Origin: Runella sp. CRIBMP
GTDB taxonomy: Bacteria > Bacteroidota > Bacteroidia > Cytophagales > Spirosomataceae
Length of the DNA: 64,000 nucleotides
Assembly (NCBI RefSeq): GCF_009905605.1
Contig: NZ_JAAAKZ010000001.1
Location: 744,001 to 808,000, forward strand
Reading direction: 5' to 3'
This document shows positions 6,634-48,873 of the stretch, piece by piece (positions within the stretch are counted from its first letter, which is position 1; each line of letters opens with the position of its first letter). Below the pieces are notes generated by a model that saw nothing but the letters and a program-made list of their open reading frames with translations, was not told the origin of the DNA and did not search any database. A program made the position numbers and the translations under genes.

Positions 6634-6671
6634 GCGCCGTGTTGTTGGATTCTCAAAACCATCAACACGCT

Positions 6672-6719
6672 AATAACAGAAGCCCCACTCTTTATCCAAG
6701 AAGTGGGGCTTCTGTTATT
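6672..6719. terminator. Bidirectional terminator between proB and hsp20
   Basis: A perfect 18-base inverted repeat (6672-6689 and 6702-6719) with a stem of AGAAGCCCCACT and AT-rich feet. It lies between converging genes and serves both. Confidence 0.85.
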
Positions 6720-6731
6720 TATTCTTCTGGA

Positions 6732-7163
6732 TTAGCCGATTTCGATAATACGTGGCGATTTTTTCGCTTCGTCTTTTTTAGGAAGTTCGATTTTTAATAT
6801 TCCGTCGGTGTAAGCAGCGTTGATTTGGTCGCCGTTGATGGTGTTAGGTAAGGTAAAAGCCCGGCGAAAACTTGTGTAACTAAATTCTTTGCGGGTGTAT
6901 TTCTCAGTACTTTCTTCGTTTTTTTGCTCTTGTTGGGCCGAAATCGTCAACACGTTGTTTTCTAAGTTGATTTTAAAATCTTCTTTTTTGAGACCAGGAG
7001 CGGCTACTTCTAGTCGAAAACCACCCTCGTGTTCTACGATATTAACGGCTGGTACGCCATAGTTGCTCAATGTAGCAGGGGCAAAAATGTCATTGAGGTC
7101 TTTGCCAAATACACTTCCGAATAAGTTGGGGAAATTGCCGTTTGTTTTTACTAAAGTTGCCAT
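6732..7163 (-). CDS. Hsp20/alpha-crystallin small heat-shock protein
   Basis: A 143-residue small heat-shock protein, an ATP-independent holdase that keeps unfolding proteins soluble in the cytoplasm. The alpha-crystallin domain spans about residues 38-135: VNIVEHEGGFRLEVAAPGL, then KINLENNVLTISAQ, and the conserved AAYTDGILKIELPK. The usual short N-terminal arm is present, and the protein ends in an Ile-x-Ile-like anchor (RIIEIG) as most oligomeric sHSPs do. It is a single gene with its own terminator. A 16-base tandem repeat lies about 40 bases upstream of the start. No sigma-32-like or CIRCE element was recognised. Confidence 0.95.
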   Translation of the reverse strand: MATLVKTNGNFPNLFGSVFGKDLNDIFAPATLSNYGVPAVNIVEHEGGFRLEVAAPGLKKEDFKINLENNVLTISAQQEQKNEESTEKYTRKEFSYTSFRRAFTLPNTINGDQINAAYTDGILKIELPKKDEAKKSPRIIEIG

Positions 7164-11927: not shown

Positions 11928-13140
11928 ATAATCCTTTAATGAATCTCTTTGCCCATGAGTAACGTTGGCTGCGTAAATCTTGAGGTTTCCATACATCGGC
12001 CCAAGATACCTGCCTCTTCATTTTTACCGCTCGCATTTTCAATACATATCCAATAAGCAGATATAAAAAGAAAAGACCTACCAGTACAAAGAAAGCCTGG
12101 GTATTTGTAATGTACTTAAAAGTCAAAAAATAACCAATCACGTTAACAATAGTCATACTCCAAAGTGTAATTGAAGTCTGGAAGTGGCTCAGGCCATTAT
12201 CCAATAAAACGTGGTGCATGTGATTGCGGTCGGCCTTAAACGGAGAACGTCGGTTAAGTATACGTACCAGAAATACCCGCAGTGTATCAAATATCGGAAC
12301 AATCAAAAGCACAACCGCCAAAATAGGTGCGTTGAAAAATGCGCTGCTGTCGTGGATATAGGTGACGTTGAGTCGGATGAATTTTACGGCAAAAAAAGCC
12401 AACAAAAAACCGACAATAAGTGAGCCTGTATCACCCATAAAAATTTTGCTGGTTTTGGAGAAATTGAACCGAAGGAAACCCAGCAAAGCCCCCGACATCG
12501 AGAACGCCATACAGGCCATTGAAAAATGGTGGTTAAGCAAAAACCACGTCCCGAAACTCAACCCCGCAATAAAAGCAATCCCGCCCGCCAAACCATCGAC
12601 CCCGTCAATGAGGTTAATGGCGTTGATGAGCGCAATGAATATAAAGATTGTAAAAGGAATGCTGATTAAATCTGGAATCTGATGAATACCGAAAATCCCG
12701 AAGAAATTATCCACTTTCAGCCCACCCAAAAGAATAAGTGTTGAAACGGCTAATACTTGAAGCAACAGTTTTTTGTTGGGGTCGAGCACCAAAATATCGT
12801 CTTTTAGACCCAGAAAAAACAGAATCGTGAGACCTACCACGGCCAAACTTGTCAGGTAAGAATCGGTGTTTTCATTGGTATGAGGCCAAAGAAAGTGGGC
12901 AATCAGCAGGGAGGCGTAGATGGCTATTCCGCCAAATTCGGGGGTTTCTTGCTGGTGAGCGCTCCGAAAATTGGGCTTCTTTTTAAGCTCCAATAAACCG
13001 CTGATGTTAATGATGACGGGGATAGATGTAACGGATACGGCACAGGCAATCAAAAAAGATATAAGGCACTGATACACTTCGTGTTGAAGTATATTTTGAT
13101 ACTGTGTTCGGAGTACATCTATAAGTATATCTGCATTCAT
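11926..13140 (-). CDS. WecA/TagO-like undecaprenyl-phosphate sugar-1-phosphate transferase
   Basis: A 404-residue polytopic membrane enzyme of the MraY/WecA glycosyltransferase family 4. It transfers HexNAc-1-phosphate (often GlcNAc) from the UDP-sugar to undecaprenyl phosphate, the first step of polysaccharide or O-antigen repeat synthesis. The diagnostic cytoplasmic motifs are present: LGLKDDILVLDPNKKLLLQ (DDxxxLxPxxK), NAINLIDGVDGLAGG, MGDTGSL, and RNHMHHVLLDNG (HHxxxxxG). About 10-11 membrane helices are seen. It is the last gene of a four-gene leftward polysaccharide cluster, which fits initiation of a surface glycan. The exact sugar is not readable. Confidence 0.9.
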   Translation of the reverse strand: MNADILIDVLRTQYQNILQHEVYQCLISFLIACAVSVTSIPVIINISGLLELKKKPNFRSAHQQETPEFGGIAIYASLLIAHFLWPHTNENTDSYLTSLAVVGLTILFFLGLKDDILVLDPNKKLLLQVLAVSTLILLGGLKVDNFFGIFGIHQIPDLISIPFTIFIFIALINAINLIDGVDGLAGGIAFIAGLSFGTWFLLNHHFSMACMAFSMSGALLGFLRFNFSKTSKIFMGDTGSLIVGFLLAFFAVKFIRLNVTYIHDSSAFFNAPILAVVLLIVPIFDTLRVFLVRILNRRSPFKADRNHMHHVLLDNGLSHFQTSITLWSMTIVNVIGYFLTFKYITNTQAFFVLVGLFFLYLLIGYVLKMRAVKMKRQVSWADVWKPQDLRSQRYSWAKRFIKGL

Positions 13141-13241
13141 AAATTCAATTTCAGCTTACTTTGCCTTCATAACTTGAAAACAAAAATTATAAAAATAAGA
13201 TTACCGAACAAAAATCGACGACGAAAATAGGGGGCAATTTA

Positions 13242-14006
13242 TTATTCGGTATATTTTGGCTTGTAAACAAACTGTAAAACTTTTCGGAGGGGTTTTAACC
13301 ACAGCGTAAACCAATAAGGTTTAATTCCGTTGAGAGTCCACGCCATCCGGTCGCTTGTATTTGCTTTTAAACGATTATCAAGCGACTTGTTGCTGACGCC
13401 ACCTGTTCGCATTACGGTTGTGATTTGAGGTTGGTAGGTCACACTTATTTGGTGTTTGTACATCATCCTCAGCATGAGCTCGTAATCAGCCGCGCTTCCA
13501 AGGTCCAATCGATACGTCCCGAATTTCTTATAGGACGAACTTCGAAGGAAAAACGTTGGATGAGGTGGCATCCATCCAAACAAAAAGTTACTCCTTTGGT
13601 AGTTACCAGATTTCCAATAACGCGTTACTCGGTGCGTATCGTCGGCATTTACGTAAATCAAATCACCGTAGATTGCCTCTGCGTTTGTTTCTATCAGCCT
13701 ATCAACAATATGCTCAATGACAAAAGCGTCGTGATAAAAGTCGTCGGCATTCAAGATGCCGATTACCTCACCGGTTGCTAGAGAGATGCCTTTGTTCATG
13801 GCATCATAAATTCCAGCATCTTTTTCGGACAAAAATACAGCAATTTTCGTGCCGTAACTTTTAACAATTTCTGGTGTCGTATCGGTTGATTTTCCGTCGA
13901 TTATGATATATTCGATGTCTTTGTAGGACTGCTTTAGCACCGAATCAATACAACTTCGTATGGTTTTTTCTCCGTTAAAAACGACCGTTATAATGCTTAC
14001 TTTCAA
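13242..14006 (-). CDS. Family 2 glycosyltransferase with TTG start
   Basis: A 254-residue GT-A fold glycosyltransferase, cytoplasmic or membrane-associated. The N-terminus KVSIITVVFNGEKTI and the segment EYIIIDGKSTDTTPEI are the nucleotide-sugar site. GILNADDFYHD carries the DxD-like metal motif, and DLGSAADYELMLRMM carries the acceptor/base region. It resembles WcaE/PGL-type transferases. The start codon is TTG at 14006: the preceding in-frame codons reach a stop with no ATG, while the family N-terminus begins exactly here. It lies between the acetyltransferase and WecA-like genes, so it probably extends the same surface glycan. Confidence 0.88.
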   Translation of the reverse strand: MKVSIITVVFNGEKTIRSCIDSVLKQSYKDIEYIIIDGKSTDTTPEIVKSYGTKIAVFLSEKDAGIYDAMNKGISLATGEVIGILNADDFYHDAFVIEHIVDRLIETNAEAIYGDLIYVNADDTHRVTRYWKSGNYQRSNFLFGWMPPHPTFFLRSSSYKKFGTYRLDLGSAADYELMLRMMYKHQISVTYQPQITTVMRTGGVSNKSLDNRLKANTSDRMAWTLNGIKPYWFTLWLKPLRKVLQFVYKPKYTE

Positions 14007-14086
14007 AGTTTCGAAATGTTAACCGTTCTCCTTCCTTATTAATTTATCTGTTGAGGGAGAAGCTATATTTGTTGTATATGCTGTAA

Positions 14087-14662
14087 TTATTCAGTTATTT
14101 TTCGTTCTCTTATCCATTGTGCTGGGTTGCCTTGATAGACTCCGTAGGCTTCCAAGTCTTTGACTGCAACCGAATTTACGGCCAATACCGCGTGCGAATG
14201 GCAAACTACATTGGGACACACCATGGCTTTTGCACCAATCCAAACGCCGTCTTCAATGACGATTTTACCCACGCTTAAATCAAAAGTACTGCGGGTATAG
14301 TCATGATTTCCCGTAAGGAGCATAGCGCCTTGCGACAAACATACGTGATCCCCCAGCGATACTGTCGTCAGGTTGTCAATCCAGACCTCTTCTCCTATCC
14401 AGACGTAATTACCTACATTAAGTAACCATGGATATTTGATATTTACTTTTGGCTTAATCATGACTCCAGTGCCTATTGTTGCACCAAAGGCTCTCAAAAT
14501 GAGGCGTTTTAATGAAACTGGTACGAGCAAATATGAATTCAAAAAAATGGCGTTTGTAATAAACCAAAGCACATTTTTTATGAAAGGTGGCTGCTTGTAC
14601 CAACTATTGTCGTACTTCGACAGGTCGGTTTTGAACCGCTGATAAGTCTTTTCCGTATTCAT
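14087..14662 (-). CDS. WcaF-like sugar O-acetyltransferase (left-handed beta-helix)
   Basis: A 191-residue acetyltransferase with hexapeptide repeats (from about residue 60: GATIGTGVMIKP, VGNYVWIGEEVWI, IEDGVWIGAKAMV), which form a trimeric beta-helix using acetyl-CoA. LTGNHDY holds the likely catalytic His. The N-terminal TDLSKYDNSWYKQ is typical of colanic-acid WcaF proteins. The ATG at 14662 is used because the family pattern starts just after it; a longer frame begins at 14731. The start overlaps the upstream glycosyltransferase by 59 bases in another frame, which implies tight coupling. It likely acetylates a sugar of the exported glycan. Confidence 0.88.
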   Translation of the reverse strand: MNTEKTYQRFKTDLSKYDNSWYKQPPFIKNVLWFITNAIFLNSYLLVPVSLKRLILRAFGATIGTGVMIKPKVNIKYPWLLNVGNYVWIGEEVWIDNLTTVSLGDHVCLSQGAMLLTGNHDYTRSTFDLSVGKIVIEDGVWIGAKAMVCPNVVCHSHAVLAVNSVAVKDLEAYGVYQGNPAQWIRERKITE

Positions 14663-36969: not shown

Positions 36970-38859
36970 TTACATCGCGCCTGCTTTAATATCATCCACC
37001 ACTGTGGGGTCCAGAAGCGTGGTTGTGTCGCCTAGATTTGAGGTGTCTCCTTCGGCGATTTTGCGCAGAATCCGACGCATGATTTTTCCCGAGCGTGTTT
37101 TGGGTAATCCTCTGACAAACTGGATTTTATCTGGTTTGGCAATGGGCCCAATGATGCGTGTCACGGTCGCTAAAATATCCCGGCGCGAAAGGTCTTCGTC
37201 GTCGAGGGTATTTTCGCAAATGACAAACGCATAGATTCCCTGCCCTTTGATATCGTGCGGATAGCCCACCACTGCACTCTCGATGACGTCGGCGTGCATG
37301 TTGATGGCGTTTTCTACTTCGGCGGTTCCGATGCGGTGCCCCGATACGTTGAGCACATCATCCACGCGGCCCGTGATGCGGTAGTAGCCGTCTTCGTCGC
37401 GGAGGCAACCGTCGCCGGTAAAGTATAGATTTGGATAGGTCGAGAAGTACGTCTGCCGACAGCGCTCGTGGTCGCCCCAAGTGGTACGGATGATAGACGG
37501 CCACGGATATTTGATACAAAGATTTCCGCTCACGCCGTTTCCTTCTATTTCTTTGCCGCTTTCGTCGACCAATATCGGTTGTACCCCCGGCAGCGGCAGG
37601 GTAGCGTAGGTTGGCTTGGTTTTGGTCACTCCCGCGATGGGCGAAATCAAAATACCGCCCGTTTCGGTTTGCCACCATGTGTCTACAATCGGGCATTTGC
37701 CTTTACCAATGTGTTCGTTGTACCAGTTCCATGCTTCTTCATTGATGGGTTCACCCACCGAGCCCAGCACTTTGAGCGAACTAAGGTCTTTGCCTTCGAC
37801 GTATTTGAGGCCAAAGCCCATCAACGAACGAATGGCCGTAGGGGCGGTATAAAGAATGTCTACTTTGTGCCGGTCAACAATATCCCAAAAACGTCCCGCA
37901 TCGGGATAGGTCGGGATGCCTTCAAACATCAAAGAAGTGGCTCCACTCAGCAGCGGGCCGTATACGATGTAGCTGTGGCCCGTAATCCAGCCCACGTCGG
38001 CGGTACAGAAAAATACTTGGTCTTTTTCATATTGGAATACATTTTGGAACGTATACGCCGAATACACCATGTAGCCACCAGTGGTGTGCACAACGCCCTT
38101 GGGCTTGCCCGTTGAGCCTGATGTATAGAGAATAAACAAAGGGTCTTCTGAATCCATCACCTCGGGCCGGCAGTCCGACGTAACTTGCTTCATTTCACTT
38201 TCCCACCATACGTCACGGCCTTTAATCATCGAAATGGGCGTGCGGGTATGGGTGAGTACGATAACTTTTTGAACCGAAGGACACGCAATCAGGGCGTCGT
38301 CAACGGTATCTTTCATGGGGATATTTTTATTGCCACGCGCCGCACCGTCGGAGGTAACAATAACTTTACAGTTAGAATCAATGATGCGGTCGGTCAACGA
38401 TTGGGCCGAAAACCCACCGAATACAACCGAATGAACAGCACCGATGCGCGCACAGGCCAAGATAGCGATGGCTGCTTCGGGCACCATTGGCAGGTAAATA
38501 CACACGCGGTCGCCTTTGACAACGCCGTTGCGCTTGAGCACGTTGGCAAAACGACACACTTGGTCGTGGAGCATTTTGTACGTGAGCGTTACGCTGGGTT
38601 CAGAAGGGTCGTTGGGCTCCCAAATGATGGCGGGATGATTGCCCAGCTCGCGCAAATGACGGTCGAGGGCGTTTTCGGTGATGTTTGTTTTTCCACCTAC
38701 AAACCACTTGATGTCGGGGGTGCTAAAATTCCATTCGAGCACTTTTTTCCACGGCTTATGCCATTTGAATTCCTGAGCTACTTCGGCCCAGAATCCTTCG
38801 GGGTCTTCTACACTGTGCTGATAGGCGGTTTGGTACTCTTCAAATGTACGGATACGCAT
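36970..38859 (-). CDS. acs: Acetyl-CoA synthetase (AMP-forming)
   Basis: A 629-residue enzyme that activates acetate to acetyl-CoA through acetyl-AMP. N-terminal ACS features (FWAEVAQEFKWHKPWKKVL) are followed by LPMVPEAAIAILACARIGA, the ATP motif FILYTSGSTGKPKGVVHTTG, WWQTETGG, and the hinge and acyl-transfer region GRVDDVLNVSGHRIGTAEVE. The C-terminal PKTRSGKIMRR carries the lysine that is acetylated to switch off the enzyme in many bacteria. Start 38859 matches the family N-terminus; a 59-codon extension to 39036 would run into prpE. It is the last gene of the leftward short-chain-acid locus. Confidence 0.95.
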   Translation of the reverse strand: MRIRTFEEYQTAYQHSVEDPEGFWAEVAQEFKWHKPWKKVLEWNFSTPDIKWFVGGKTNITENALDRHLRELGNHPAIIWEPNDPSEPSVTLTYKMLHDQVCRFANVLKRNGVVKGDRVCIYLPMVPEAAIAILACARIGAVHSVVFGGFSAQSLTDRIIDSNCKVIVTSDGAARGNKNIPMKDTVDDALIACPSVQKVIVLTHTRTPISMIKGRDVWWESEMKQVTSDCRPEVMDSEDPLFILYTSGSTGKPKGVVHTTGGYMVYSAYTFQNVFQYEKDQVFFCTADVGWITGHSYIVYGPLLSGATSLMFEGIPTYPDAGRFWDIVDRHKVDILYTAPTAIRSLMGFGLKYVEGKDLSSLKVLGSVGEPINEEAWNWYNEHIGKGKCPIVDTWWQTETGGILISPIAGVTKTKPTYATLPLPGVQPILVDESGKEIEGNGVSGNLCIKYPWPSIIRTTWGDHERCRQTYFSTYPNLYFTGDGCLRDEDGYYRITGRVDDVLNVSGHRIGTAEVENAINMHADVIESAVVGYPHDIKGQGIYAFVICENTLDDEDLSRRDILATVTRIIGPIAKPDKIQFVRGLPKTRSGKIMRRILRKIAEGDTSNLGDTTTLLDPTVVDDIKAGAM

Positions 38860-39001
38860 GATATCTGAATGTGTTTTGGTAAAAGTTAACGTGGTTAGGA
38901 AGGTTGTTGATGAATGCGGGTCTAAAAATAACAAAACATTTTCCCGTTTGAGTGAAATCGCTGACCTAAAATTGCTAAAAAGGTATAGAAAGTGATGAAA
39001 A

Positions 39002-40930
39002 TCAGATGACTGCAAATTCTCCGAATCCTTTGCCAATTTTTCGGTTCTGCAATTTTTCGGCTATTTCTCCTAAAATCGCTGGGTCGTCAATTGTAGAAGG
39101 AACATTGTAAGATTCGCCGTCGGCGATTTGGCGCATTACTTTTCGCAGGATTTTTCCCGAACGGGTCTTGGGTAAACGTTTTACAATTAACGCACTTTTG
39201 AAGTACGCCACGGCCCCGATTTGTTCTCGAATCAACGTTACCAATTGGGTTTCAATCATTGGCTCGTCGATGGCCATTCCATCTTTCAGAACCACAAACG
39301 CCACGGGGCGCTGTCCGCGCATTTCGTCCTGAATTCCCACCACGGCACATTCCGCCACTGCTGGGTGCGAAGCCACAAATTCCTCCATTTCACCCGTAGA
39401 AAGGCGGTGCCCCGCCACATTGATGACATCGTCTACGCGGCCCATGATGTACACGTAGCCGTCGTCGTCTTTGTAGCCGCCGTCGCCAGAGAAATAAAAC
39501 CCTGGGAACTTGGAAAGATACGATTCTTGAAAGCGGGCATCGTCGTTCCAGAGCGTGGGTAGGCAGCCGGGAGGCAGTGGCAGTTTGAGGCAAACGTATC
39601 CTTCGTGGTTGGCATCCAACGGCTGCCCGTCTTCGTCCAGAATCTGCACATCAAACCCACAAACGGGTTTGGTTGCGGAGCCGGGTTTGACGGGTAAAAG
39701 CTCTACGCCCGTCATATTGGCAATCATCGGCCAGCCAGACTCTGTTTGCCACCAATGATCAATGATAGGTTTATTGGTTATTTCCTGCAACCATTTGAGG
39801 GTAGAAGGATCGCAGCGCTCTCCAGCCACGAAGAGCTGTTGGAGGCAGCTAAGGTCGTATTTTTGGAGAAATTCAGCCTGTGGGTCTTCTTTCCGGATGG
39901 CGCGAAATGCCGTGGGTGCAGTGAAAAATACTTTTACCTGATGTTCAGAAATAATGCGCCAAAAGGTGCCCGCATCGGGAGTCCTAACGGGTTTTCCTTC
40001 AAACAAAATGGTGGTACAGCCCTGAATAAGAGGTGCATAGATAATGTATGAATGACCAACTGCCCAGCCCAAATCAGAAGCGGCCCAATACACATCTCCT
40101 GGTTGAATGTTATATACATACTGCATCGAAAATTTCATGGCAACGGCGTGCCCCCCGTTGTCGCGAACAATTCCTTTGGGTTTGCCCGTGGTACCCGACG
40201 TGTACAAAACGTATAGCGGGTCGAGGGCGTCAACGGGTACGCAATCAACGGGCTCGGCCTGCGCAACAGCGGTGCTGAAATCAACGTCGCGCCCCGCGTG
40301 CATGAGAGCGTGAATTTGGGGACGTTGTAAAATTAAACAGTGAGGTGGTTTAAATTGGGCGAGGTGAATGGCGTCGTCGAGCAACGGTTTGTACGGAATC
40401 ACTCGCTCAAACTCAATACCGCACGAAGCCGAAATAACGACTTTAGGGCGGGTATCGTCAATGCGTATGGCCAGTTCGTGCGGGGCAAATCCTCCGAAAA
40501 CCACCGAATGAACCGCCCCCAAACGGGCGCAAGCCAGCATCGCAAAAGCCGCTTCGGGTACCATCGGCATATAAATCACGACACAATCGCCTTTTTCGAC
40601 GCCCAATTGACGTAATGCCCCTGCCAATTTTGCTACCTCCGATTGAAGTTGGGCGTAGGTGTATTTTTGAACGGTTTTGGTCACAGGAGAATCATAAATA
40701 AGCGCCACCTGCTCCGACCGGCCGTGCTCTACGTGATAATCCAAGGCCAAGTAGCAGGTATTTAGTGTTCCCCCTTCAAACCACCGATAGAACCCCTTTT
40801 CGTTCATCGTTAATGTCTGAACGGGTGCTTTATACCACGCAATTTTGGTGGCCTGTTTGGTCCAAAAATCCACAGGACTAGCAAGGCTGGCTTCGTAAAA
40901 GCCTGCATAAGAGGGTGTTGGTGATTTCAT
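39002..40930 (-). CDS. prpE: Propionyl-CoA synthetase (AMP-forming)
   Basis: A 642-residue ANL-family ligase, paralogous to the acs product. It begins YAGFYEASLASPVDFWTKQA, where the family usually reads WxxQA, with the short PrpE/ACSS3-type N-terminus. YVLYTSGTTGKPKGIVRDNG is the ATP motif, where RDNGGH replaces the THGG of Acs and is typical of propionate-CoA ligases. WWQTESGWP, RVDDVINVAGHRLSTGEMEE and PKTRSGKILRKVM (acetylatable Lys) complete the set. It is expected to make propionyl-CoA, with some acetate activity. It lies between the response regulator (25 bases) and acs (142 bases), so both acids would be activated from one operon. Confidence 0.88.
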   Translation of the reverse strand: MKSPTPSYAGFYEASLASPVDFWTKQATKIAWYKAPVQTLTMNEKGFYRWFEGGTLNTCYLALDYHVEHGRSEQVALIYDSPVTKTVQKYTYAQLQSEVAKLAGALRQLGVEKGDCVVIYMPMVPEAAFAMLACARLGAVHSVVFGGFAPHELAIRIDDTRPKVVISASCGIEFERVIPYKPLLDDAIHLAQFKPPHCLILQRPQIHALMHAGRDVDFSTAVAQAEPVDCVPVDALDPLYVLYTSGTTGKPKGIVRDNGGHAVAMKFSMQYVYNIQPGDVYWAASDLGWAVGHSYIIYAPLIQGCTTILFEGKPVRTPDAGTFWRIISEHQVKVFFTAPTAFRAIRKEDPQAEFLQKYDLSCLQQLFVAGERCDPSTLKWLQEITNKPIIDHWWQTESGWPMIANMTGVELLPVKPGSATKPVCGFDVQILDEDGQPLDANHEGYVCLKLPLPPGCLPTLWNDDARFQESYLSKFPGFYFSGDGGYKDDDGYVYIMGRVDDVINVAGHRLSTGEMEEFVASHPAVAECAVVGIQDEMRGQRPVAFVVLKDGMAIDEPMIETQLVTLIREQIGAVAYFKSALIVKRLPKTRSGKILRKVMRQIADGESYNVPSTIDDPAILGEIAEKLQNRKIGKGFGEFAVI

Positions 40931-40955
40931 GAGTAATGAAACTTAAAAGGGGAAA

Positions 40956-41339
40956 CTATACGGCGCTCATCGTAAGTGCGTTTACTTTGGCCACCATGTC
41001 GCGGGTTGAAAACGGTTTAGGTATGTATAAATCGGCGCCAAGATCATATCCTTTTTGCAGGTCAGTTTCACGGCTTTTTGAACTCATAAAGATGACCTTG
41101 GCATGTTGATATTCTGGCGAGCTTTTGATAAAACGGCACACCTCATACCCATCGACTTTGGGCATCATAATATCTAATAAAACAACGTCTGGAATTTCGG
41201 TGCGAACGATATCAACGGCTTCTTCGCCATCGCGGGCAATAAAAACTTTGTATCCTTCCTTTTTCATCAGGAATTCCAGCGACATCAAAATATTGGGCTC
41301 GTCGTCTACTATTACTATTTTTATATGTTGGCGTGTCAT
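40956..41339 (-). CDS. Single-domain response regulator (receiver only)
   Basis: A 127-residue receiver with no output domain. IVIVDDEPNIL supplies the acidic pair (Asp12, Asp13), VVLLDIMMPKVDGYEV the phospho-acceptor Asp56, FMSSKSR the switch Ser86, and YIPKPF the Lys108, so it should be phosphorylatable. It lies about 100 bases after the symporter-kinase gene and 25 bases before prpE. CrbR/ErdR-like regulators paired with such kinases in Proteobacteria have a C-terminal LuxR DNA-binding domain, which is missing here. It therefore must act through protein contact or a second regulator. Confidence 0.92.
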   Translation of the reverse strand: MTRQHIKIVIVDDEPNILMSLEFLMKKEGYKVFIARDGEEAVDIVRTEIPDVVLLDIMMPKVDGYEVCRFIKSSPEYQHAKVIFMSSKSRETDLQKGYDLGADLYIPKPFSTRDMVAKVNALTMSAV

Positions 41340-41447
41340 ATAGGCAGTATGTTCGTAGGGTGACCTAGGAGTTTTGAGTGAATAACGTTGTAAAATAGAA
41401 AATTTATTCTCTTAAAATAAAATTGTGATCGCAAAGAGATATAGATA

Positions 41448-44144
41448 CTACACTGGTATTTCAAAAGTAAACAGCGCCCCTTCTTCTACTGTACTCTGCA
41501 CATGAATGCTTCCTTGATGCAGTTCAATGATTTTTTTGGAAATGGCCAGCCCCAATCCGCTGCCTTTGGGCTTGCGGGCAAGCGGGGCATTTCCTTGGTA
41601 AAATTTATCAAAAATCAGGGCAATATGCTCCGCACTGATGCCTGGTCCATTGTCTTTTACACTGATAGAAAGGTAATTGCCGTCTGCCATTGCCCTTATT
41701 TCGATGAGCCCGTTTTGGGCGGGGCAAAATTTGATGGCGTTGGATAACAAATTAATGAGCACCTGCATCAGCCGGTCAAAATCTCCGTTTATCGTGGGTA
41801 GTTTGCCCGCGTAAGATGTTTGAATGACAATATTTTTTTCGGTGGCCAAGGCATTAATGGAATTTATAGATTCTTCGATGAGGGTTTCGGGGTGAAATGT
41901 TTCTTTGGTCAATTGGTATTTTCCAGTTTCAAACCGTTCCAAATCAAGCACTTGGTTGATTAGCCGGGTCAGGCGGTCTGATTCTTTGATGATGGTACTC
42001 AGAAAATGCTTTTGCTGCTCTTCGTCCATGTCGGGATTGTCGAGGACAATTTCCGACAACGCCCGAATAGAGGTCATGGGCGTTCGGATTTCGTGCGTAA
42101 CCGTCGACAGAAAATCATCTTTTTCGCGGTCGGCCTGTTGCAGACGCTCATTGGCTTCCTTGAGCTGACCCGTGAGTTGCTCCAGTTCGCGCGATTTGCG
42201 CGTCAGCTCTTCGTTCACAAGGCGCAGTTCTTGTGACGTTTTTAAAATATCAATCACCTCATCCACCGTTACGGGTTCTTCTTTCGCCACCGACGCCACC
42301 ACCACCCGCGCCGAAGCAGCCCCAATGGCACCGCTGAGCATTTTTTCGGCATAATTGACCAACTGCGGGTCGGCATATTTGGCAGAAAGGGCAAGTTTAT
42401 TGCGTTTGACGTAGAGCGTTATGGCCCGTTGTGCGCGCATTTCCCCGAAAAATTTACTTAAAAGATTCGTTATGTCAGTCACCAAGGCTTTTCCTCGCCA
42501 AGCCACCGAACGTTCGTAAGACGTATCGTATCTGAAAATATCGACAAACAACGCGGCTTGGTTGTGCTCTACGGCACTTTGGGAGAAATTTAGCGCCCCC
42601 AAAACGTAGAATGAAACGTTAAAAAGTAACGACCAAAAGACGCCGTGCGAAAGGCTGTCCATCCCCTCAAGCCCCAGAAATGCTTCTGGCCTAAGCCAAT
42701 GAATGTGCGCTGGCCCATGCGCCAAAAAGTCGGAAGAGATAAGGCCATTTGAGGCCATTGAGGGAATAATCAGGGTATAAAACCAAACAGTTGTTCCTGC
42801 CAAAATTCCGCTCATCGCTCCCGTCAGATTGGCCCGTTTCCAACAAATTCCGCCCAAAGCAGCGGGGGCAAACTGCGCCACTGCCGCAAACGAAACCATG
42901 CCGACCGATACCAACGAGTACTTGTCACTGACGTTTTTGTAATAAGCGTACGCTAGCAAAATAATGACGGCAATAAATAAACGACGGGCCGTAATGACAA
43001 AACTCCCAATCGAAGACCCCATGCGTTCTTGCCACCCCCGACGGCTCACCAAAAATGGCATCAGTAAATTATTGCTGAACATCACCGTCAGGGCGGTACA
43101 TTCCACGATAATCATGCTTGTCGCCGCCGAAAATCCGCCCAAATAAGTCAGAAAAGCCAAGCCTTGTTGCTTAAAATGCAGTGGTATGGCCAGCAGATAG
43201 GTGTCAGATTTGATGGCTTCGTCGGCAAAAAGTAATTTTCCGCTGAGGGCAATGGGTAAGACAAAAATGTTGATAATCAGCAGGTAAAGCGGGAATAACC
43301 ATTGTGCTTTTTTGAGGTGATTTTCGTCGATATTTTCCACTACTGTTACCTGAAACTGACGAGGTAAAAACAGAATAGCAATGGCGGCCAGAAAGCAATG
43401 CCAGAACCAATTTCCCGTTTGATTTTCGGGTAAAGTAAATAGTTTACGAAGTTCGGGGACTTTCACTGCGCGGGCGGCGATGTCGTCGAAGCCGTTGAAA
43501 ATGCCGAAAGTAATGAAGACTCCAACCGCTAAAAACGCAAATAACTTGACCAGCGACTCAAAGGCAATGGCCGCAACGAGGCCTTCGTGGCGTTCGTTGG
43601 CTTCTAGTTTTCGGGTTCCGAATAGAATCGCAAACACAATCAGCATCAGGGCGATGTAGAAAGATTGATCGCTCAAAAACGACTGATTGGGCGAGGTATC
43701 ATTGCCCGAAAGAATCAGAAAGCTGCTCGTAATGGCTTTGAGTTGAATGGAAATATAGGGGATGATACCCAGTAAACACACCACGGTCACAATCACGCCC
43801 AAGGCACGACTTTTGCCATAACGGGCGGAGATAAAATCGGCAATGCTGGTGATTCGCTGGACTTTACAAATGCGAATAACCTTCCTGAAAATAATCCACC
43901 AAAGCGGAATTACGAGCGTAGGACCGATGTAAACGCTTAGAAAATCTGGCCCCGATTCGGCCGCTCGACCCACGCTACCATAAAACGTCCAAGCGGTGCA
44001 GTAAACGGCCAAAGAAAGAGCATACACGTAAGGATTATTCACCCAACTGCGCTTGTGGGACGAGCGGCGCTCAGCCCGGTCGGCAATCACAAACAAGAGC
44101 AACAGGTACAACAAAGACCAGCAAATAATCCAAAAACTACTCAT
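41448..44144 (-). CDS. Sodium:solute symporter-histidine kinase fusion (CbrA/CrbS-like)
   Basis: An 898-residue hybrid sensor. Residues of about 1-520 form the 12-13 membrane helices of an SLC5 (SSS) transporter. A STAC-like linker (VNYAEKMLSGAIGAASARVV) and a coiled coil (ELTRKSRELEQLTGQLKEAN) lead to the kinase: H-box STVTHEIRTPM (His about 684), N-box LINLLSNAIKF, G1 KDNGPGIS and G2 GSGLGLAISKK. CrbS/MxtR/CbrA-type proteins sense acetate or other organic acids and control acs. Start 44144 (MSSFWIICW) overlaps the upstream small gene by eight bases. The position next to prpE and acs fits that role. Confidence 0.93.
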   Translation of the reverse strand: MSSFWIICWSLLYLLLLFVIADRAERRSSHKRSWVNNPYVYALSLAVYCTAWTFYGSVGRAAESGPDFLSVYIGPTLVIPLWWIIFRKVIRICKVQRITSIADFISARYGKSRALGVIVTVVCLLGIIPYISIQLKAITSSFLILSGNDTSPNQSFLSDQSFYIALMLIVFAILFGTRKLEANERHEGLVAAIAFESLVKLFAFLAVGVFITFGIFNGFDDIAARAVKVPELRKLFTLPENQTGNWFWHCFLAAIAILFLPRQFQVTVVENIDENHLKKAQWLFPLYLLIINIFVLPIALSGKLLFADEAIKSDTYLLAIPLHFKQQGLAFLTYLGGFSAATSMIIVECTALTVMFSNNLLMPFLVSRRGWQERMGSSIGSFVITARRLFIAVIILLAYAYYKNVSDKYSLVSVGMVSFAAVAQFAPAALGGICWKRANLTGAMSGILAGTTVWFYTLIIPSMASNGLISSDFLAHGPAHIHWLRPEAFLGLEGMDSLSHGVFWSLLFNVSFYVLGALNFSQSAVEHNQAALFVDIFRYDTSYERSVAWRGKALVTDITNLLSKFFGEMRAQRAITLYVKRNKLALSAKYADPQLVNYAEKMLSGAIGAASARVVVASVAKEEPVTVDEVIDILKTSQELRLVNEELTRKSRELEQLTGQLKEANERLQQADREKDDFLSTVTHEIRTPMTSIRALSEIVLDNPDMDEEQQKHFLSTIIKESDRLTRLINQVLDLERFETGKYQLTKETFHPETLIEESINSINALATEKNIVIQTSYAGKLPTINGDFDRLMQVLINLLSNAIKFCPAQNGLIEIRAMADGNYLSISVKDNGPGISAEHIALIFDKFYQGNAPLARKPKGSGLGLAISKKIIELHQGSIHVQSTVEEGALFTFEIPV

Positions 44145-44340
44145 CTTCTGCTTCAGATTGACGAAGTAACCACGCCGTAGCCCCAATAATCAGTAACCAT
44201 GCTCCAAATAGAAAGCCGTAAAATACGGGGATACTCCCGATAAATGTCGGCTTGTTGAAAATCGAAAGAAAAGGGGTATTGAAGAGGACAATCGCCACTA
44301 CACACAACGCCACCAATGAAATTTTACGATTTGTATTCAT
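44137..44340 (-). CDS. Small two-helix membrane protein next to the symporter kinase
   Basis: A 67-residue protein with two membrane segments: about 8-27 (ISLVALCVVAIVLFNTPFLS) and about 38-60 (IPVFYGFLFGAWLLIIGATA). The tail is acidic (QSEAEDE). The pattern G-x-P-x-F-Y-x-F plus a Trp in the second helix resembles small accessory subunits of sodium:solute symporters (DUF3311/DUF4212-like), but I cannot assign a family. It overlaps the start of the symporter-kinase gene by eight bases, so the two are translationally coupled and the protein probably belongs to that sensor. Confidence 0.75.
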   Translation of the reverse strand: MNTNRKISLVALCVVAIVLFNTPFLSIFNKPTFIGSIPVFYGFLFGAWLLIIGATAWLLRQSEAEDE

Positions 44341-44443
44341 AAGAAGGGATAAAGTGAAGATGCCTGCTATGCGTTGCCGTTATAAAATGATTGCCGAAGA
44401 GCGATACTACTTCGACAATCATTCAAACTACTAAACCCTAAAC

Positions 44444-44668
44444 CTAACTTTTACTGTCGTATTCGCCTTTGAGGGCATAAATTCCAAAAGTAGCCAGGCT
44501 CCCTACAATAAGAGGACATAAGATAAAGGTGTAAATTCCCGCAGGAATCAAGTCTTCGGGTTTGCCCGTGCCAAATTTGGGGATGGCCTGATTGATTAAT
44601 AAATAATACCCTGCGGCGGCACCTACGGCCAACCAGATAATACCTGCTAGTCTTTTTATCGTATTCAT
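44444..44668 (-). CDS. Small DUF6814-like membrane protein
   Basis: A 74-residue protein with two membrane helices: about 6-26 (LAGIIWLAVGAAAGYYLLI) and about 43-65 (IPAGIYTFILCPLIVGSLAT). It ends YALKGEYD, a pattern I associate with the DUF6814 family of Bacteroidota, whose genes lie beside MFS transporters. It follows the MFS gene by 73 bases on the same strand. It may be an accessory or stability subunit of that transporter. Its function is not known. Confidence 0.7.
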   Translation of the reverse strand: MNTIKRLAGIIWLAVGAAAGYYLLINQAIPKFGTGKPEDLIPAGIYTFILCPLIVGSLATFGIYALKGEYDSKS

Positions 44669-44741
44669 TGTCTTTGTTGTTGCTAAATCAGTTGAAAAAA
44701 TAGGGGTAATGAGCGTTTTTGTTACTCATTGATTTGGTGGA

Positions 44742-46340
44742 TTAATCATTAACGTTGCGATCTTTACCGTTGATGTACAATAATCCAATGACAAAACAGA
44801 TTCCTGCAATGACAATCGGATACCAAAGTCCTTCGAGGTAAGGAGCGGCGTTGGGCAATGCTTCCCCAGCTTCTTTGGCGATGTCGTTGGCTTTGCCAGC
44901 CGAGGCAACCAAAGCGGTGGCAATGGTAGGCAACAGTCCACCAAATACGCCGTTTCCGATGTGGTACGGCAACGACATAGACGTGTAGCGAATGCGGGTC
45001 GGAAACATCTCCACGAGGAAGGCTGCGATAGGGCCGTAGACCATTGTTACGAAAATCACCTGAATGAAGACTAGCCAAATAAGCGTCCATTTATCGCTGT
45101 CATTGATGGTGACGAGTTTCTTGATTTCGGGTTTTACGGGGGCTGCGGAGGCATCGGCTAAGATTTTTTCAATCTTCTTTTCTTCGTATTGAGTGCCGTC
45201 CGTATATTCTTTTTTGATGGTAGTGACAATGAGCGAATCTTTGGTTTCAACCCCGTCTTTTTTGTCCAGCGTGCGGGTTATACCTACCGTTGTTTTTTCG
45301 GCTACTTCCGTTTTATTTTGGATGTTGGTGGTCTGGTACATTTTTTCGTAAATCGGACGGTACGACAAAATGGCAATCAACATACCAGCGAGCATGATGC
45401 CTTTGCGGCCAATCTTATCAGACAACCAACCGAATAACACAAAGAATGGCGTGCCCAACATCAACGCGTAGGTCATCAGCGCGTTGGATTGCTGAAGGTC
45501 AATGGCCATTACTTTTTGGAGAAAGCTCAACGCGTAAAATTGCCCCGTGTACCACACAACTCCTTGGCCCATAGTGGCTCCCAATAAAGCCAGCAACACA
45601 AATTTGAAGTTGTAACGGTTGCCGAATGATTCTTTCAGCGGGTTGGTAGAGGTTTTTCCTTCGGCTTTTGCTTTGGCAAACAACGGCGATTCGTGCATGT
45701 TTTTACGAATCAAGACCGAAACGTACACCATGATGATGGAAACCAAAAACGGTACGCGCCAGCCCCATTCAGAAAAAGCCTCTTTCGACATGCTGTTTTG
45801 GGTCAATTGAATCACAATCAGCGATACAAACAACCCTGCAGTAGCCGTGATTTGAATCCATGAAGTCCAGAATCCACGCTTGTCGGCGGGAGAGTGCTCG
45901 GCCACGTAAGTAGCGGCGCCGCCGTATTCGCCGCCAAGGGCTAACCCCTGCAAAAGACGCAGTAAAAGCACTAGGGTAGGAGCCAAGAAACCGATGGTTT
46001 CGTAGCTGGGAATCAAACCAATCATGAACGTAGCGCCGCCCATCAGCAGCAACGTGACCATGAAGGTATATTTTCGGCCAATAAGGTCACCCAAGCGGCC
46101 AAAGAAAATGGCCCCGAAAGGACGAACCACAAAGCCTGCGGCAAAAGTGGCTAAGGTAGAAAGAAAAGCCGCGGTGGGGTTGCCGTCTGGAAAAAACTTG
46201 GTGGCGATAATCGTCGCCAAGCTTCCAAAGATGTAGAAATCGTACCACTCAATCATCGTACCGACCGACGATGCCGCAATGATGGCCGCTAAGCTTTGTT
46301 TTTTCTGCGCTTTAGTATTCGTTGTTGCAGATTCTGACAT
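44742..46340 (-). CDS. MHS-type MFS transporter with a large internal insert
   Basis: A 532-residue, 12-helix transporter of the metabolite:H+ symporter group (ProP/KgtP/ShiA-like). GTMIEWYDFYIFGSL, RPFGAIFFGRLGDLIGRKYT, LRLLQGLALGGEYGGAA and FGWLSDKIGRKG are the family motifs. MHS members carry organic acids, betaines or shikimate. Residues of about 330-415 are an extra charged, non-hydrophobic segment (NKTEVAEKTTVGITRTLDKK, KKEYTDGTQYEEKK) between two helices, longer than usual for the family. It lies between the porin and small membrane proteins, upstream of the acid sensor, so short-chain acids are a plausible cargo. Confidence 0.9.
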   Translation of the reverse strand: MSESATTNTKAQKKQSLAAIIAASSVGTMIEWYDFYIFGSLATIIATKFFPDGNPTAAFLSTLATFAAGFVVRPFGAIFFGRLGDLIGRKYTFMVTLLLMGGATFMIGLIPSYETIGFLAPTLVLLLRLLQGLALGGEYGGAATYVAEHSPADKRGFWTSWIQITATAGLFVSLIVIQLTQNSMSKEAFSEWGWRVPFLVSIIMVYVSVLIRKNMHESPLFAKAKAEGKTSTNPLKESFGNRYNFKFVLLALLGATMGQGVVWYTGQFYALSFLQKVMAIDLQQSNALMTYALMLGTPFFVLFGWLSDKIGRKGIMLAGMLIAILSYRPIYEKMYQTTNIQNKTEVAEKTTVGITRTLDKKDGVETKDSLIVTTIKKEYTDGTQYEEKKIEKILADASAAPVKPEIKKLVTINDSDKWTLIWLVFIQVIFVTMVYGPIAAFLVEMFPTRIRYTSMSLPYHIGNGVFGGLLPTIATALVASAGKANDIAKEAGEALPNAAPYLEGLWYPIVIAGICFVIGLLYINGKDRNVND

Positions 46341-46413
46341 TAGTGTAGGAAAGTTAGGTGTTATAATTAGAGAAAATATAAGGGTTTCGGAGGAGGGTTT
46401 TACTTAACCAAAC

Positions 46414-47790
46414 TCAAAGATACGTTTGGAATTGAACGATAAACTCACCTTTGTTGCCATCTATGACATCTTTGGCCGTGTAGATGGGGCGAGTTGAGTA
46501 CTGTAAAGTGATTTTCGCGTGGTGCCCGTCGATGAAAAAGTTGCTGCCAAGGTCAAAGTAGCTGCCTGTTTTACTGAGGGCTTCAAACTTCTTAGACGTG
46601 TAAGCGGCAAATGGCTGAACGCGGATTTTGGGTTTATCGCTGGTTTTGGGCAATAAAATTCCTGCTTGTGTATAGAAAATGGAGCCTGTTCCTATCATTG
46701 GGCGGGCATTTCCCGCCCCCGCCAAGGCTTTTTTATCGGTAAACTTGGGGTCAATCGTGCCAATATTCATGATGCCGATGTTGCGGAGGTAGTTGGGACC
46801 AAAATTGTAATTAAAATAGCCGGTGTACATCGTAAGGGCTGCATTTTTCTCTTTTTTACCGATCGGCATATCCAGAAATGCATCCAACGCCAGCAAGTTT
46901 ATGGAATGTTTTTGTACAATTCCATTTTTTAGGCTTTGTGTTCCTTCTTTTTGAGAATAAAACCCTGCTCCCACGTTAAATACCTTTTTGGTGCCTACGT
47001 AGGTGCCCACTTTGAAAGGAAGGGCATTGGATTCTCGGTCAAAAAATTCATATTCTAAATAGCCTGCCAGCGCGGCTTTACTCTGGCCATTGTTGTCGAC
47101 GGCTACGCCTTCAGTGGCCGTTCCGTTGGTTGCAAACGGTTTATTTAATGCCAAACGATACTCAAACTTGCCCGCTTTTCCTTTGGTAAAGATGCCGTAT
47201 TGGCGGGCAAATTGATCACTGTTTTCGATAAGTGCCCAGTTGAATATGGGTGCATCAACGGCCAAATAATTAAGGGTACTCGACATGGTCATTCTTGAAA
47301 TCCCCATTACGTAGTGCAGACCAGCCCCAATATTCATCGTAAATTTGTTTGGCTTTTTGGTCTCGGCGTTGATGGTAGGGATGATGGTATATTCACTCCA
47401 AAAGTCATGGAAAAATAGCCCTGGTTTTTTGCCAGCGCCATATCCACCCGTTCCAGAAGTGCCCGCAGCACCGCCGTTCAGAAAAGACTGATTGTTGACA
47501 CCAAAGTGAGCCAATACCATAAATCGGGGGCTCACTTGGGCCATTGCTAGCATCCGTAAGCGCCTACCACCCACATCAAACGTTTTATCTTGGGGTGTTC
47601 CGTTGATTAACGTGCCAGGATTGTTCTGTACAGACCTAGCCCATATCTGACTCCAAGTAATCAAACGCACGTATTTCGTGCCTTCAGGGTTTATATTAAA
47701 TTTCATTCCTGAACCATAATCCGTAGAGCCTTGGGCGTAGCTATGGGCGCAGCTGGTAGCAAAAATCAATACTAAAAATAACTTTTTCAT
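46414..47790 (-). CDS. Outer-membrane porin
   Basis: A 458-residue exported protein with signal peptide (FLVLIFATSCAHSYAQ). The mature part has many alternating strands with frequent Gly and aromatic residues (YVRLITWSQIWARSV, LRMLAMAQVSPRFMVLAH, GAGLHYVMGISRMTMSSTLN) and ends in a strand at the C-terminus (IVQFQTYL). It resembles the phosphate-selective or general porins of Bacteroidota that neighbour MFS transporters. It is the first gene of the short-chain-acid locus, 73 bases before the MFS gene, and would supply outer-membrane entry. Substrate selectivity is not readable. Confidence 0.85.
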   Translation of the reverse strand: MKKLFLVLIFATSCAHSYAQGSTDYGSGMKFNINPEGTKYVRLITWSQIWARSVQNNPGTLINGTPQDKTFDVGGRRLRMLAMAQVSPRFMVLAHFGVNNQSFLNGGAAGTSGTGGYGAGKKPGLFFHDFWSEYTIIPTINAETKKPNKFTMNIGAGLHYVMGISRMTMSSTLNYLAVDAPIFNWALIENSDQFARQYGIFTKGKAGKFEYRLALNKPFATNGTATEGVAVDNNGQSKAALAGYLEYEFFDRESNALPFKVGTYVGTKKVFNVGAGFYSQKEGTQSLKNGIVQKHSINLLALDAFLDMPIGKKEKNAALTMYTGYFNYNFGPNYLRNIGIMNIGTIDPKFTDKKALAGAGNARPMIGTGSIFYTQAGILLPKTSDKPKIRVQPFAAYTSKKFEALSKTGSYFDLGSNFFIDGHHAKITLQYSTRPIYTAKDVIDGNKGEFIVQFQTYL

Positions 47791-48199
47791 TGTCGGTTAA
47801 GAGGAGAAGGTTTCGAAAAATTCGGACTGCATTGCAATCGAAGCCCTGGCGCCTTGGGCAGCAATTGTGATCCAAAACACCATAAAATACAATAAATAAA
47901 AAAAATATTGATATAGCTTTGGTCAATTAGTGTAGGTAAAGGCTAATAAAACACCCTATTTGCCTTATTTTATATTAATAATGGTGCCCAAGTCTGAATA
48001 TTCTGTGGTAATTAAAGAAAAAAACAGAATATTATAGGGTATTTTGGCGCTAATTGAAGTATAAAGGGGCGCAAAATAGGAATAGGCACCCCGAAAAGTG
48101 CCTATAGTAATTTAGCAAAAGTATATTATATTAGCAATAAATAGGAGAAATAGGGGAGAATGCAATGCCGTGTTTGACTAAAATGAATTCTTAGGAACC
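47791..48199. other. Porin upstream region with structured elements
   Basis: No ORF is supported. On the minus strand, the likely porin leader contains a 10-base perfect inverted repeat (47997-48006 with 48024-48033). It is extended by ACCCTAT/ATAGGGT (47953-47959 with 48034-48040) across a 37-base bulge. An 8-base hairpin (48082-48089 with 48098-48105) may end the gene to the right. A TACTTTTG element lies at 48116-48123 but lacks a TTG at proper distance. Confidence 0.4.
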
Positions 48200-48622
48200 T
48201 TAATCTTTAAATCGTTCCCATTTAATCATCATAAATTTATCGCCCAATTCGGTCACAATCATGCCCGTTCCTTCGAGGTTTTTGCGGTCGGCATAAAACT
48301 CCGCCAATTCCTTATGGCTCATTACTTTATAAGTGGCATGATGCGTGATTCGGTCGGGCATTTTGATTTGGTATTTTTTGACCCAGTTCATGACCGATAC
48401 GTGACTGACGCCCAACAAACGCTCGATTTCGCGGAAACTCACCCCTTCAATATATAGCTGGAGGGCTTTGATGACGTAATACGAACTAATACCTTTGCCG
48501 AGTTTGTCTACGGTAAAATTGTAGTCGCATTTTTTGCACCGAAACCGTTGGCGGTTTTTAATAATTCCGTTTTTGACAGTTTCTAGGCTATCGCATTTGG
48601 GGCATTTCAGGGTTGCAGCCAT
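48200..48622 (-). CDS. IS1 InsA-like zinc-ribbon/HTH protein, possibly a domesticated regulator
   Basis: A 140-residue protein. A four-Cys zinc ribbon (LKCPKCDS and FRCKKCDYNF; Cys 7, 10, 29, 32) is followed by a helix-turn-helix of about 58-84 (GVSFREIERLLGVSHVSVMN), exactly the InsA N-terminal layout of IS1 transposases. The remaining C-terminus (VMSHKELAEFYADRKN, GTGMIVTELGDKFMMIKWER) is unlike an IS1 DDE transposase, no insB frame follows, and I see no terminal repeats. It is therefore probably not an active IS but a DNA-binding protein derived from one. A TAGATTTG element (48677-48684) could be its -7. Start 48622 matches the InsA N-terminus. Confidence 0.75.
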   Translation of the reverse strand: MAATLKCPKCDSLETVKNGIIKNRQRFRCKKCDYNFTVDKLGKGISSYYVIKALQLYIEGVSFREIERLLGVSHVSVMNWVKKYQIKMPDRITHHATYKVMSHKELAEFYADRKNLEGTGMIVTELGDKFMMIKWERFKD

Positions 48623-48873
48623 TGATGAGAGAAGGTTTAGTCGGGTGAAAAAAGATATTTCGCTATAGTAATTTACCAAATCTAAATTACCTCGTTCTAT
48701 GAAAAAATGCTTTTGATCATTTTTGGGGTGGATGTGCTAATTTTAGATAGATAGCCTTTAGGCTTGGTTATATTCGGAGCAAAAGAACAGTTTTTTGTTT
48801 CTGTATGATGAAAAGTGCCGAAAAGTACGGATAATTGTTGCCTGTTCTGTTGGAGCCTAAAACAAGACCTTAC

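Follow-up and report, generated by a model that had tools for sequence, protein, structure and literature searches.

A candidate acetate switch in Bacteroidota combining a transceptor kinase, a stand-alone receiver and an IS1-derived DNA-binding protein

An IS1-derived protein beside the acetate genes

We analysed a window of 64,000 nucleotides of Runella sp. CRIBMP (contig NZ_JAAAKZ010000001.1, positions 744,001 to 808,000), in which an array for uptake, sensing and activation of short-chain acids may form a dedicated switch for acetate, perhaps also for propionate. A preliminary description regarded the array as complete with eight leftward open reading frames (ORFs), whose positions and domains were confirmed by domain searches. 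One gene had been missed: a DNA-binding gene, here called reg, belongs to the array and precedes the porin gene by 409 bp on the same strand. Its product very probably acts as a local regulator through an 18-bp motif and is likely to activate acs. The wider reading, in which a transceptor kinase signals through a stand-alone receiver to reg and hence to the acetate genes, we favour with modest confidence. The receiver has no DNA-binding domain, and the signal had been thought to have to leave the locus. This view is not supported, since just upstream is encoded a conserved stand-alone IS1-derived DNA-binding protein, and conserved sites accompany reg as well as porin and acs. The elements concerned are as follows (coordinates of the window).

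48200..48622, minus strand: reg, stand-alone protein of 140 amino acids (aa) with Zn ribbon and helix-turn-helix (HTH), recognized by its IS1 transposase match and by locus comparison
48663..48680, minus strand: motif TTTGGTAAATTACTATAG, 58 bp 5' of the reg start codon
48121..48138, minus strand: motif copy ATTGCTAATATAATATAC, first of a direct pair (19-bp period) in the reg-porin interval
48102..48119, minus strand: motif copy TTTGCTAAATTACTATAG, second of the direct pair in the reg-porin interval
47918..47935, plus strand: weak inverted motif copy (score 14.6), 145 bp 5' of the porin start
38971..38988, plus strand: inverted motif copy ATTGCTAAAAAGGTATAG, 129 bp 5' of the acs ATG
38923..38930, minus strand: -7-like box TATTTTTA, 40 bp past the acs motif copy

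Reg possesses the InsA-type Zn ribbon and HTH that characterize IS1 transposases, followed by a C-terminal beta-alpha-beta-beta module (AlphaFold2 model, mean pLDDT 83), and all 40 aligned members match the NCBIfam IS1 transposase model. The window protein aligns with residues 7-131 on positions 1-128 of 199 (E 1.5e-23), scoring 83.7 bits where a complete transposase requires 100. Because the score falls under the cut-off and only this part of the profile is covered, we regard reg as a truncated relative of IS1 transposases and not as a transposase. The Zn_ribbon_InsA score (25.8) was just under its cut-off of 26.1, and IS1_IS1595_Zn exceeded its own. Foldseek returned 911 matches at E<=10 and none at E<=0.001, the best being Lrp/AsnC-like (0.03), and a PDB sequence search gave no match under 0.026. 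Among Runella species, reg is 97-99% identical and the kinase 65-82%. The ratio of non-synonymous to synonymous substitution rates (dN/dS) of reg was about 0.009 between the window and locus L046, where dS is 2.0 and near saturation (three other pairs were saturated), compared with 0.039 for the receiver.

A conserved motif upstream of reg

The motif 5' of reg is 18 bp long, TTTGCTAAATTNNTATAG, with the consensus TTTGCTAAATTNNTATA(G/T). In 44 of the 46 reg loci considered below, a site scoring >11 lies within 220 bp of the refined reg start (exceptions L053 and L065), and in 28 of the 46 two sites follow each other directly at a period of exactly 19 bp. At scores >15, the 46 loci (897 kb) contain 130 matches, many of which trained the matrix, compared with 3 in one shuffled copy. 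A matrix trained on Cytophagales recovered 19 of the 21 other loci and the reverse matrix 20 of 25, against shuffle expectations of 0.15 and 0.1 loci, the starting seed of this hold-out coming from the same loci. In L191, which lay outside the training set, the two sites of a pair stand 56 and 37 bp upstream of reg, and acs is preceded at 185 bp by an inverted copy. None of the 14 loci with a kinase and without reg had a site >13.5.

A search of 395 genomes for sites paired at 19 bp returned 50 matches in total; because the backward control gave about 43, position and low mismatch number alone separate signal from noise. With at most two mismatches there were 24 matches: 21 at reg, one (G319) at the contig end of a reg genome and two (G350 and G188) in genomes without reg. 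Three further reg genomes matched at three mismatches. In the window's genome, exact TTTGSTAAATTNNTATA occurs twice, both times at this locus, and with one mismatch it occurs 6 times in total, no more than in the backward control (7). Elsewhere, one exact match each was found in G006 and G009.

Sites lie on both sides of the reg gene in many loci. A reading of the motif as terminal inverted repeats was rejected as a general explanation, the Runella reg-porin pair being oriented like the pair that precedes reg in other loci. In Flavobacterium-like loci the pre-reg pair ends at the reg start codon, suggesting that reg may limit its own expression there. As a separate observation, in genome G038 a reg relative of 39% identity with an internal stop lies away from the acetate genes (L192, positions ~6516-6958) and is closely preceded by a motif-like site of score 14.

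Sites at target promoters and their geometry

In reg loci, 21 of 44 acs genes have a site scoring >11 no more than 320 bp from the start, as do 18 of 38 porin, 5 of 31 prpE and 2 of 36 MHS transporter genes. The acs copies are in nearly all cases inverted relative to the sites of reg itself, and 12 of the 18 porin genes with a site have an inverted copy. In the window, acs had been included in a run of genes with coupled or short gaps. This does not hold for acs, whose ATG (38859) is separated from the prpE stop by 142 bp; this gap contains one of the motif copies together with a -7-like box. The acs and prpE promoters with a site number 27 including L191, or 17 after near-copies are dropped. 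In 15 of these 17 a TAnnTTT core follows the site, at 29-30 bp in 8 and at 39-40 bp in 7, whereas the best two windows reached a maximum of 6 in 300 shuffles.

The two spacing classes differ by one DNA turn. The -7 element of Bacteroidota is described as TAnnTTTG at -12 to -5 (PMC6847099, PMC9723704). Placing the boxes accordingly puts the site edge of these predicted promoters near -42 or -52. Operator edges at such positions are typical of activators. A spacing of 29-30 or 39-40 bp between site and -7-like box is what an activator would be expected to show.

Co-occurrence of reg with the kinase

We compared 61 kinase loci: the window, 24 from a sample of relatives and 36 from a phylum-wide sample. 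In 46 of them a same-strand reg gene of about 140 codons precedes the porin or transporter; L061, which has a cut kinase ORF, was counted separately among these. The 15 loci without reg are L048 (a cut contig of 5.8 kb), L063 and 13 from genomes outside the class of Runella. The genome of L063 (G049) has reg elsewhere, adjoining porin, permease and acs.

In the phylum sample (395 genomes; kinase E<=1e-60, reg E<=1e-40), 41 genomes carry the kinase and 30 carry reg, with 28 having both, 13 only the kinase, two only reg (G222 and G344) and 352 neither. Every one of the 28 kinase genomes inside the class has reg, and the 13 kinase-only genomes all lie outside it. Weaker IS1-like matches were found in 16 further genomes, including the kinase genomes G071 and G187. 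In the relatives sample (59 genomes; reg E<=1e-20), the kinase and reg each occur in 25 genomes and together in 24; the exceptions are G007 (cut contig), which has only the kinase, and G038, with its 39% match. The two samples share four genomes, and the counts ignore relatedness.

Among ORFs of at least 90 aa, the kinase loci showed no further conserved DNA-binding gene. Outside the class, 6 of the 13 loci without reg (L103, L105 and L096-L099) encode a stand-alone ArsR-like protein 207-334 bp before the kinase, on the same strand and upstream of the small gene. The two of these six scanned with Pfam matched HTH_5 (E 1e-7 and 6e-7).

Organization of the array and its signalling proteins

The eight genes downstream of reg are listed below.

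46414..47790, minus strand: outer-membrane porin-like protein, 458 aa
44742..46340, minus strand: MHS-type carboxylate transporter of the MFS, 532 aa
44444..44668, minus strand: DUF6814 small protein, 74 aa (E 3e-26)
44137..44340, minus strand: predicted two-helix membrane small protein, 67 aa, overlapping the kinase start by 8 bp
41448..44144, minus strand: SLC5-STAC-HisKA-HATPase transceptor kinase, from the ATG at 44144 (the listed ORF begins at a TTG at 44186)
40956..41339, minus strand: stand-alone receiver without output domain, 127 aa
39002..40930, minus strand: PrpE-like acyl-CoA synthetase, 642 aa, scoring under the PrpE cut-offs
36970..38859, minus strand: acs, acetate-CoA ligase, scoring over the curated cut-off

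The kinase consists of an SLC5 transporter domain, STAC, HisKA and HATPase_c, in this order, according to domain searches, profile and predicted model. Its profile, built from 34 relatives, aligns at positions 5-620, spanning SLC5 and STAC, to PDB 10ed_A (606 residues, E 1.8e-110), an entry labelled 'histidine kinase' that we take to be CbrA. The predicted model shows a transporter fold followed by four helices at 555-619. The phospho-accepting His is present in every kinase examined, and the window kinase is 97% identical to that of Runella aurantiaca. The sensor had been called CrbS-like, which holds for the succession of SLC5 and STAC typical of CrbS-type kinases and for the HisKA and HATPase_c domains. 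It does not extend to two other features: no PAS domain was detected between STAC and the kinase domains at E<=0.01 (the model has only helices at 627-677), and domain search found no C-terminal receiver of the hybrid-kinase type. SLC5/STAC kinases are described as present across phyla (PMC9100948, PMC7918813).

The 67-aa protein, whose gene directly precedes the kinase gene, had no match in Pfam or by PDB sequence search. By position it would be an analogue of CbrX, which in the CbrA structure is described as a two-helix hairpin packed against the SLC5 domain and as dispensable for growth on histidine (PMC13022988).

The receiver retains the phosphorylation residues reported for it (Asp12, Asp13, Asp56 and Lys108, read from the translation), and domain searches agreed with the preliminary description in finding no output or DNA-binding domain. 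After trimming to the likely start, receivers of the compared loci are 118-139 aa long; by length and domain search, none is fused to a LuxR-type HTH as in CrbR. Absence of the receiver-kinase linkage in relatives had been named beforehand as an outcome that would refute the array. The two are kept together in 58 of the 61 loci, so this outcome did not arise; the exceptions are the cut contigs L048 and L061 and the intact locus L118.

Some loci encode further proteins after the receiver. In L097, L103, L104 and L107 these are 341-380 aa long and by eye resemble PAS plus a degenerate kinase without the phospho-accepting His; Pfam supported a PAS domain in L097 alone and gave no match in L103 or L104. 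In L108 the protein is 719 aa long (12449-14608) and carries a DEDDh exonuclease domain (E 3e-36) at its C-terminus, and ORFs of similar length (717) follow the receiver in L109 and L117.

Both ligases are AMP-forming by domain search. Acs scored 958.6 with TIGR02188 (cut-off 724.95), as expected of a curated equivalog. For the gene named prpE, the assignment as an AMP-forming ligase stood and the specific identity did not, the scores being below both PrpE equivalog cut-offs (765.7 vs 955 and 725.4 vs 827.4); for this reason, propionate as its substrate is a guess. The porin had no Pfam match and a single weak NCBIfam porin match (36 bits, cut-off 150), and a literature search for DUF6814 found no paper. 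Two Runella genomes (L049 and L050) have additional ORFs of 321-337 aa between prpE and acs. In L058, L064, L065, L100, L115, L119-L121, L129, L164 and L191, an ORF of 562-596 aa apparently replaces MHS and DUF6814; by sequence it is an SSS permease in L058, L164 and L191 (two split ORFs in L191). This appears to be a modular exchange of transporters.

Proposed mechanism and alternatives

We propose that the kinase, with its CbrX-like subunit, would sense the acid or its flux and then phosphorylate the stand-alone receiver. Because the receiver lacks an output domain, it would act on reg by protein contact. Reg, the reused Zn-ribbon/HTH half of an IS1 transposase, would bind TTTGCTAAATTNNTATAG sites. 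At those beside its own start codon it would probably limit its own expression, and at those preceding porin, prpE or acs it would act as activator, from about one or two DNA turns beyond the promoter core. The reg-operator part is well supported, as far as genome comparison can tell, by the conserved reg gene, the conserved sites and their spacing, and the architecture of kinase and receiver likewise has sequence support. We infer reg as the protein that binds the sites, the activation and the signal, and the receiver-to-reg contact is the least certain step. That the receiver controls reg we consider evenly balanced. The step is favoured because reg and the kinase-receiver pair co-occur even if unlinked (G049) and because an ArsR-like protein stands before the kinase in 6 of the 13 reg-less loci. 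Tentatively, the output of this two-component system may be a separately encoded, exapted IS1 half, which phosphorylation-dependent contact with the receiver would turn from an end-binding protein into an activator of acetate uptake and activation genes at tandem direct-repeat operators. The kinase-receiver pair may plug into different stand-alone DNA-binding partners, since outside the class its neighbour is an unrelated ArsR-like protein.

Several observations weigh against this proposal. G222 and G344 carry reg without a kinase (E<=0.001) or a close receiver, in G222 in the order reg > MHS > acs (L163) and in G344 beside porin and permease; reg can, judging from these genomes, work without both. 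The kinase and receiver are unlinked from reg in G049, and 13 loci have the kinase without reg. The weight matrix was built from a repeated pattern read by eye upstream of reg, its seed being chosen from these loci. In G222 the motif, although it outscores every other window in 20 kb, reaches only 5.2, and it was not recognized in G344 (L164). Many target genes, namely the remainder of the counts given above, have no site, 6 of the 18 porin genes with a site have it only in direct orientation, and most -7-like boxes end in A instead of the final G of TAnnTTTG. Finally, we compared 46 reg-linked with 12 other receivers (36 and 10 without near-copies): the seven diverged positions lie in beta1, alpha1, the beta3-alpha3 loop and beta4, none in alpha4-beta5-alpha5, and conservation revealed no clear output surface.

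One alternative we consider possible and less probable than the proposed pathway. Reg may be an independent regulator of the acetate locus, responding for example to acetyl-CoA level or zinc, while the kinase and receiver act on another target, such as transporter activity or the regulator of another kinase. Such independence is consistent with reg, transporter and acs in G222 and reg, porin and permease in G344, and with G049, where the motif is found with reg, porin, permease and acs but not at the kinase-receiver locus. However, reg accompanies the kinase in all 28 kinase genomes of the class in the phylum sample and in 24 of 25 in the relatives sample, the receiver requires some output, and the loci offer no other conserved DNA-binding gene of the size considered.

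It is improbable that the receiver corresponds to the C-terminal CrbS receiver in detached form, acting as a phosphate sink or relay, with a CrbR-like regulator elsewhere giving the output. CrbS is described as a hybrid kinase with such a receiver, which the window kinase lacks, and the window's genome has 114 receiver matches. Nevertheless, the conserved array contains no CrbR-type gene (the genome was not searched for a CrbR orthologue), and direct repeats stand here where an imperfect inverted repeat is described for the Gammaproteobacterial site. That reg is a mere insertion-sequence remnant and the motif a leftover of terminal repeats, as its IS1 descent and the flanking sites might suggest, is very unlikely and already disfavoured by its constant place and strand across orders, its low dN/dS (one pair, dS near saturation), its single copy in the window's genome besides distant partial matches, and motif copies that recur at acs, kilobases distant, at a fixed spacing from the promoter.

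If the proposed pathway is true, it represents a new way to build a nutrient switch, in which the DNA-binding half of a transposase became a metabolic activator whose position has been retained across Bacteroidota orders. The stand-alone receiver would gain a plausible target, and the operator motif would make acetate control in Bacteroidota, for which we found no description in print, directly testable.

Comparison with known systems

The preliminary view of the locus as a Bacteroidota array for acetate, in which a CrbS/CbrA-type transceptor kinase goes with a receiver lacking an output domain, is supported, and its impression that such an array is not known to be described agrees with our literature searches. 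These covered titles and opening abstracts, with most subscription papers outside coverage, and found no description of a stand-alone receiver combined with an IS1-derived regulator and a direct-repeat operator. The nearest known systems each share part of the array. CrbS/CrbR (MxtR/ErdR) controls acs in Gammaproteobacteria. There, as here, an SLC5-STAC kinase is tied to acs and an acetate permease, by control in that system and by linkage in the array. The window kinase differs in having no detected PAS domain or C-terminal receiver, and the window receiver lacks the LuxR-type output of CrbR. The CrbR site is described as an imperfect inverted repeat (ACTU motif; PMC5715377), whereas the operators here are direct repeats of TTTGCTAAATTNNTATAG.

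The CbrX-CbrA/CbrB system of Pseudomonas resembles the array in the kinase profile match to 10ed_A and in the small gene that directly precedes and overlaps the kinase gene. It differs in that CbrB is a response regulator, whereas the receiver here stands alone; in addition, no PAS was found in the window kinase, and the small protein has no PDB sequence match. With IS1 transposases (InsA/InsAB'), reg shares the Zn ribbon, the HTH and the following stretch, but it ends at 140 aa without the rest of the catalytic domain and occupies a fixed place instead of being mobile. In PorY-PorX-SigP of Porphyromonas gingivalis, the partner is an extracytoplasmic function (ECF) sigma factor and PorX has a further domain. 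PorX is described as a response regulator working via a separate DNA-binding protein (PMC4800418), and it thus provides a Bacteroidota precedent for the kind of output proposed here.

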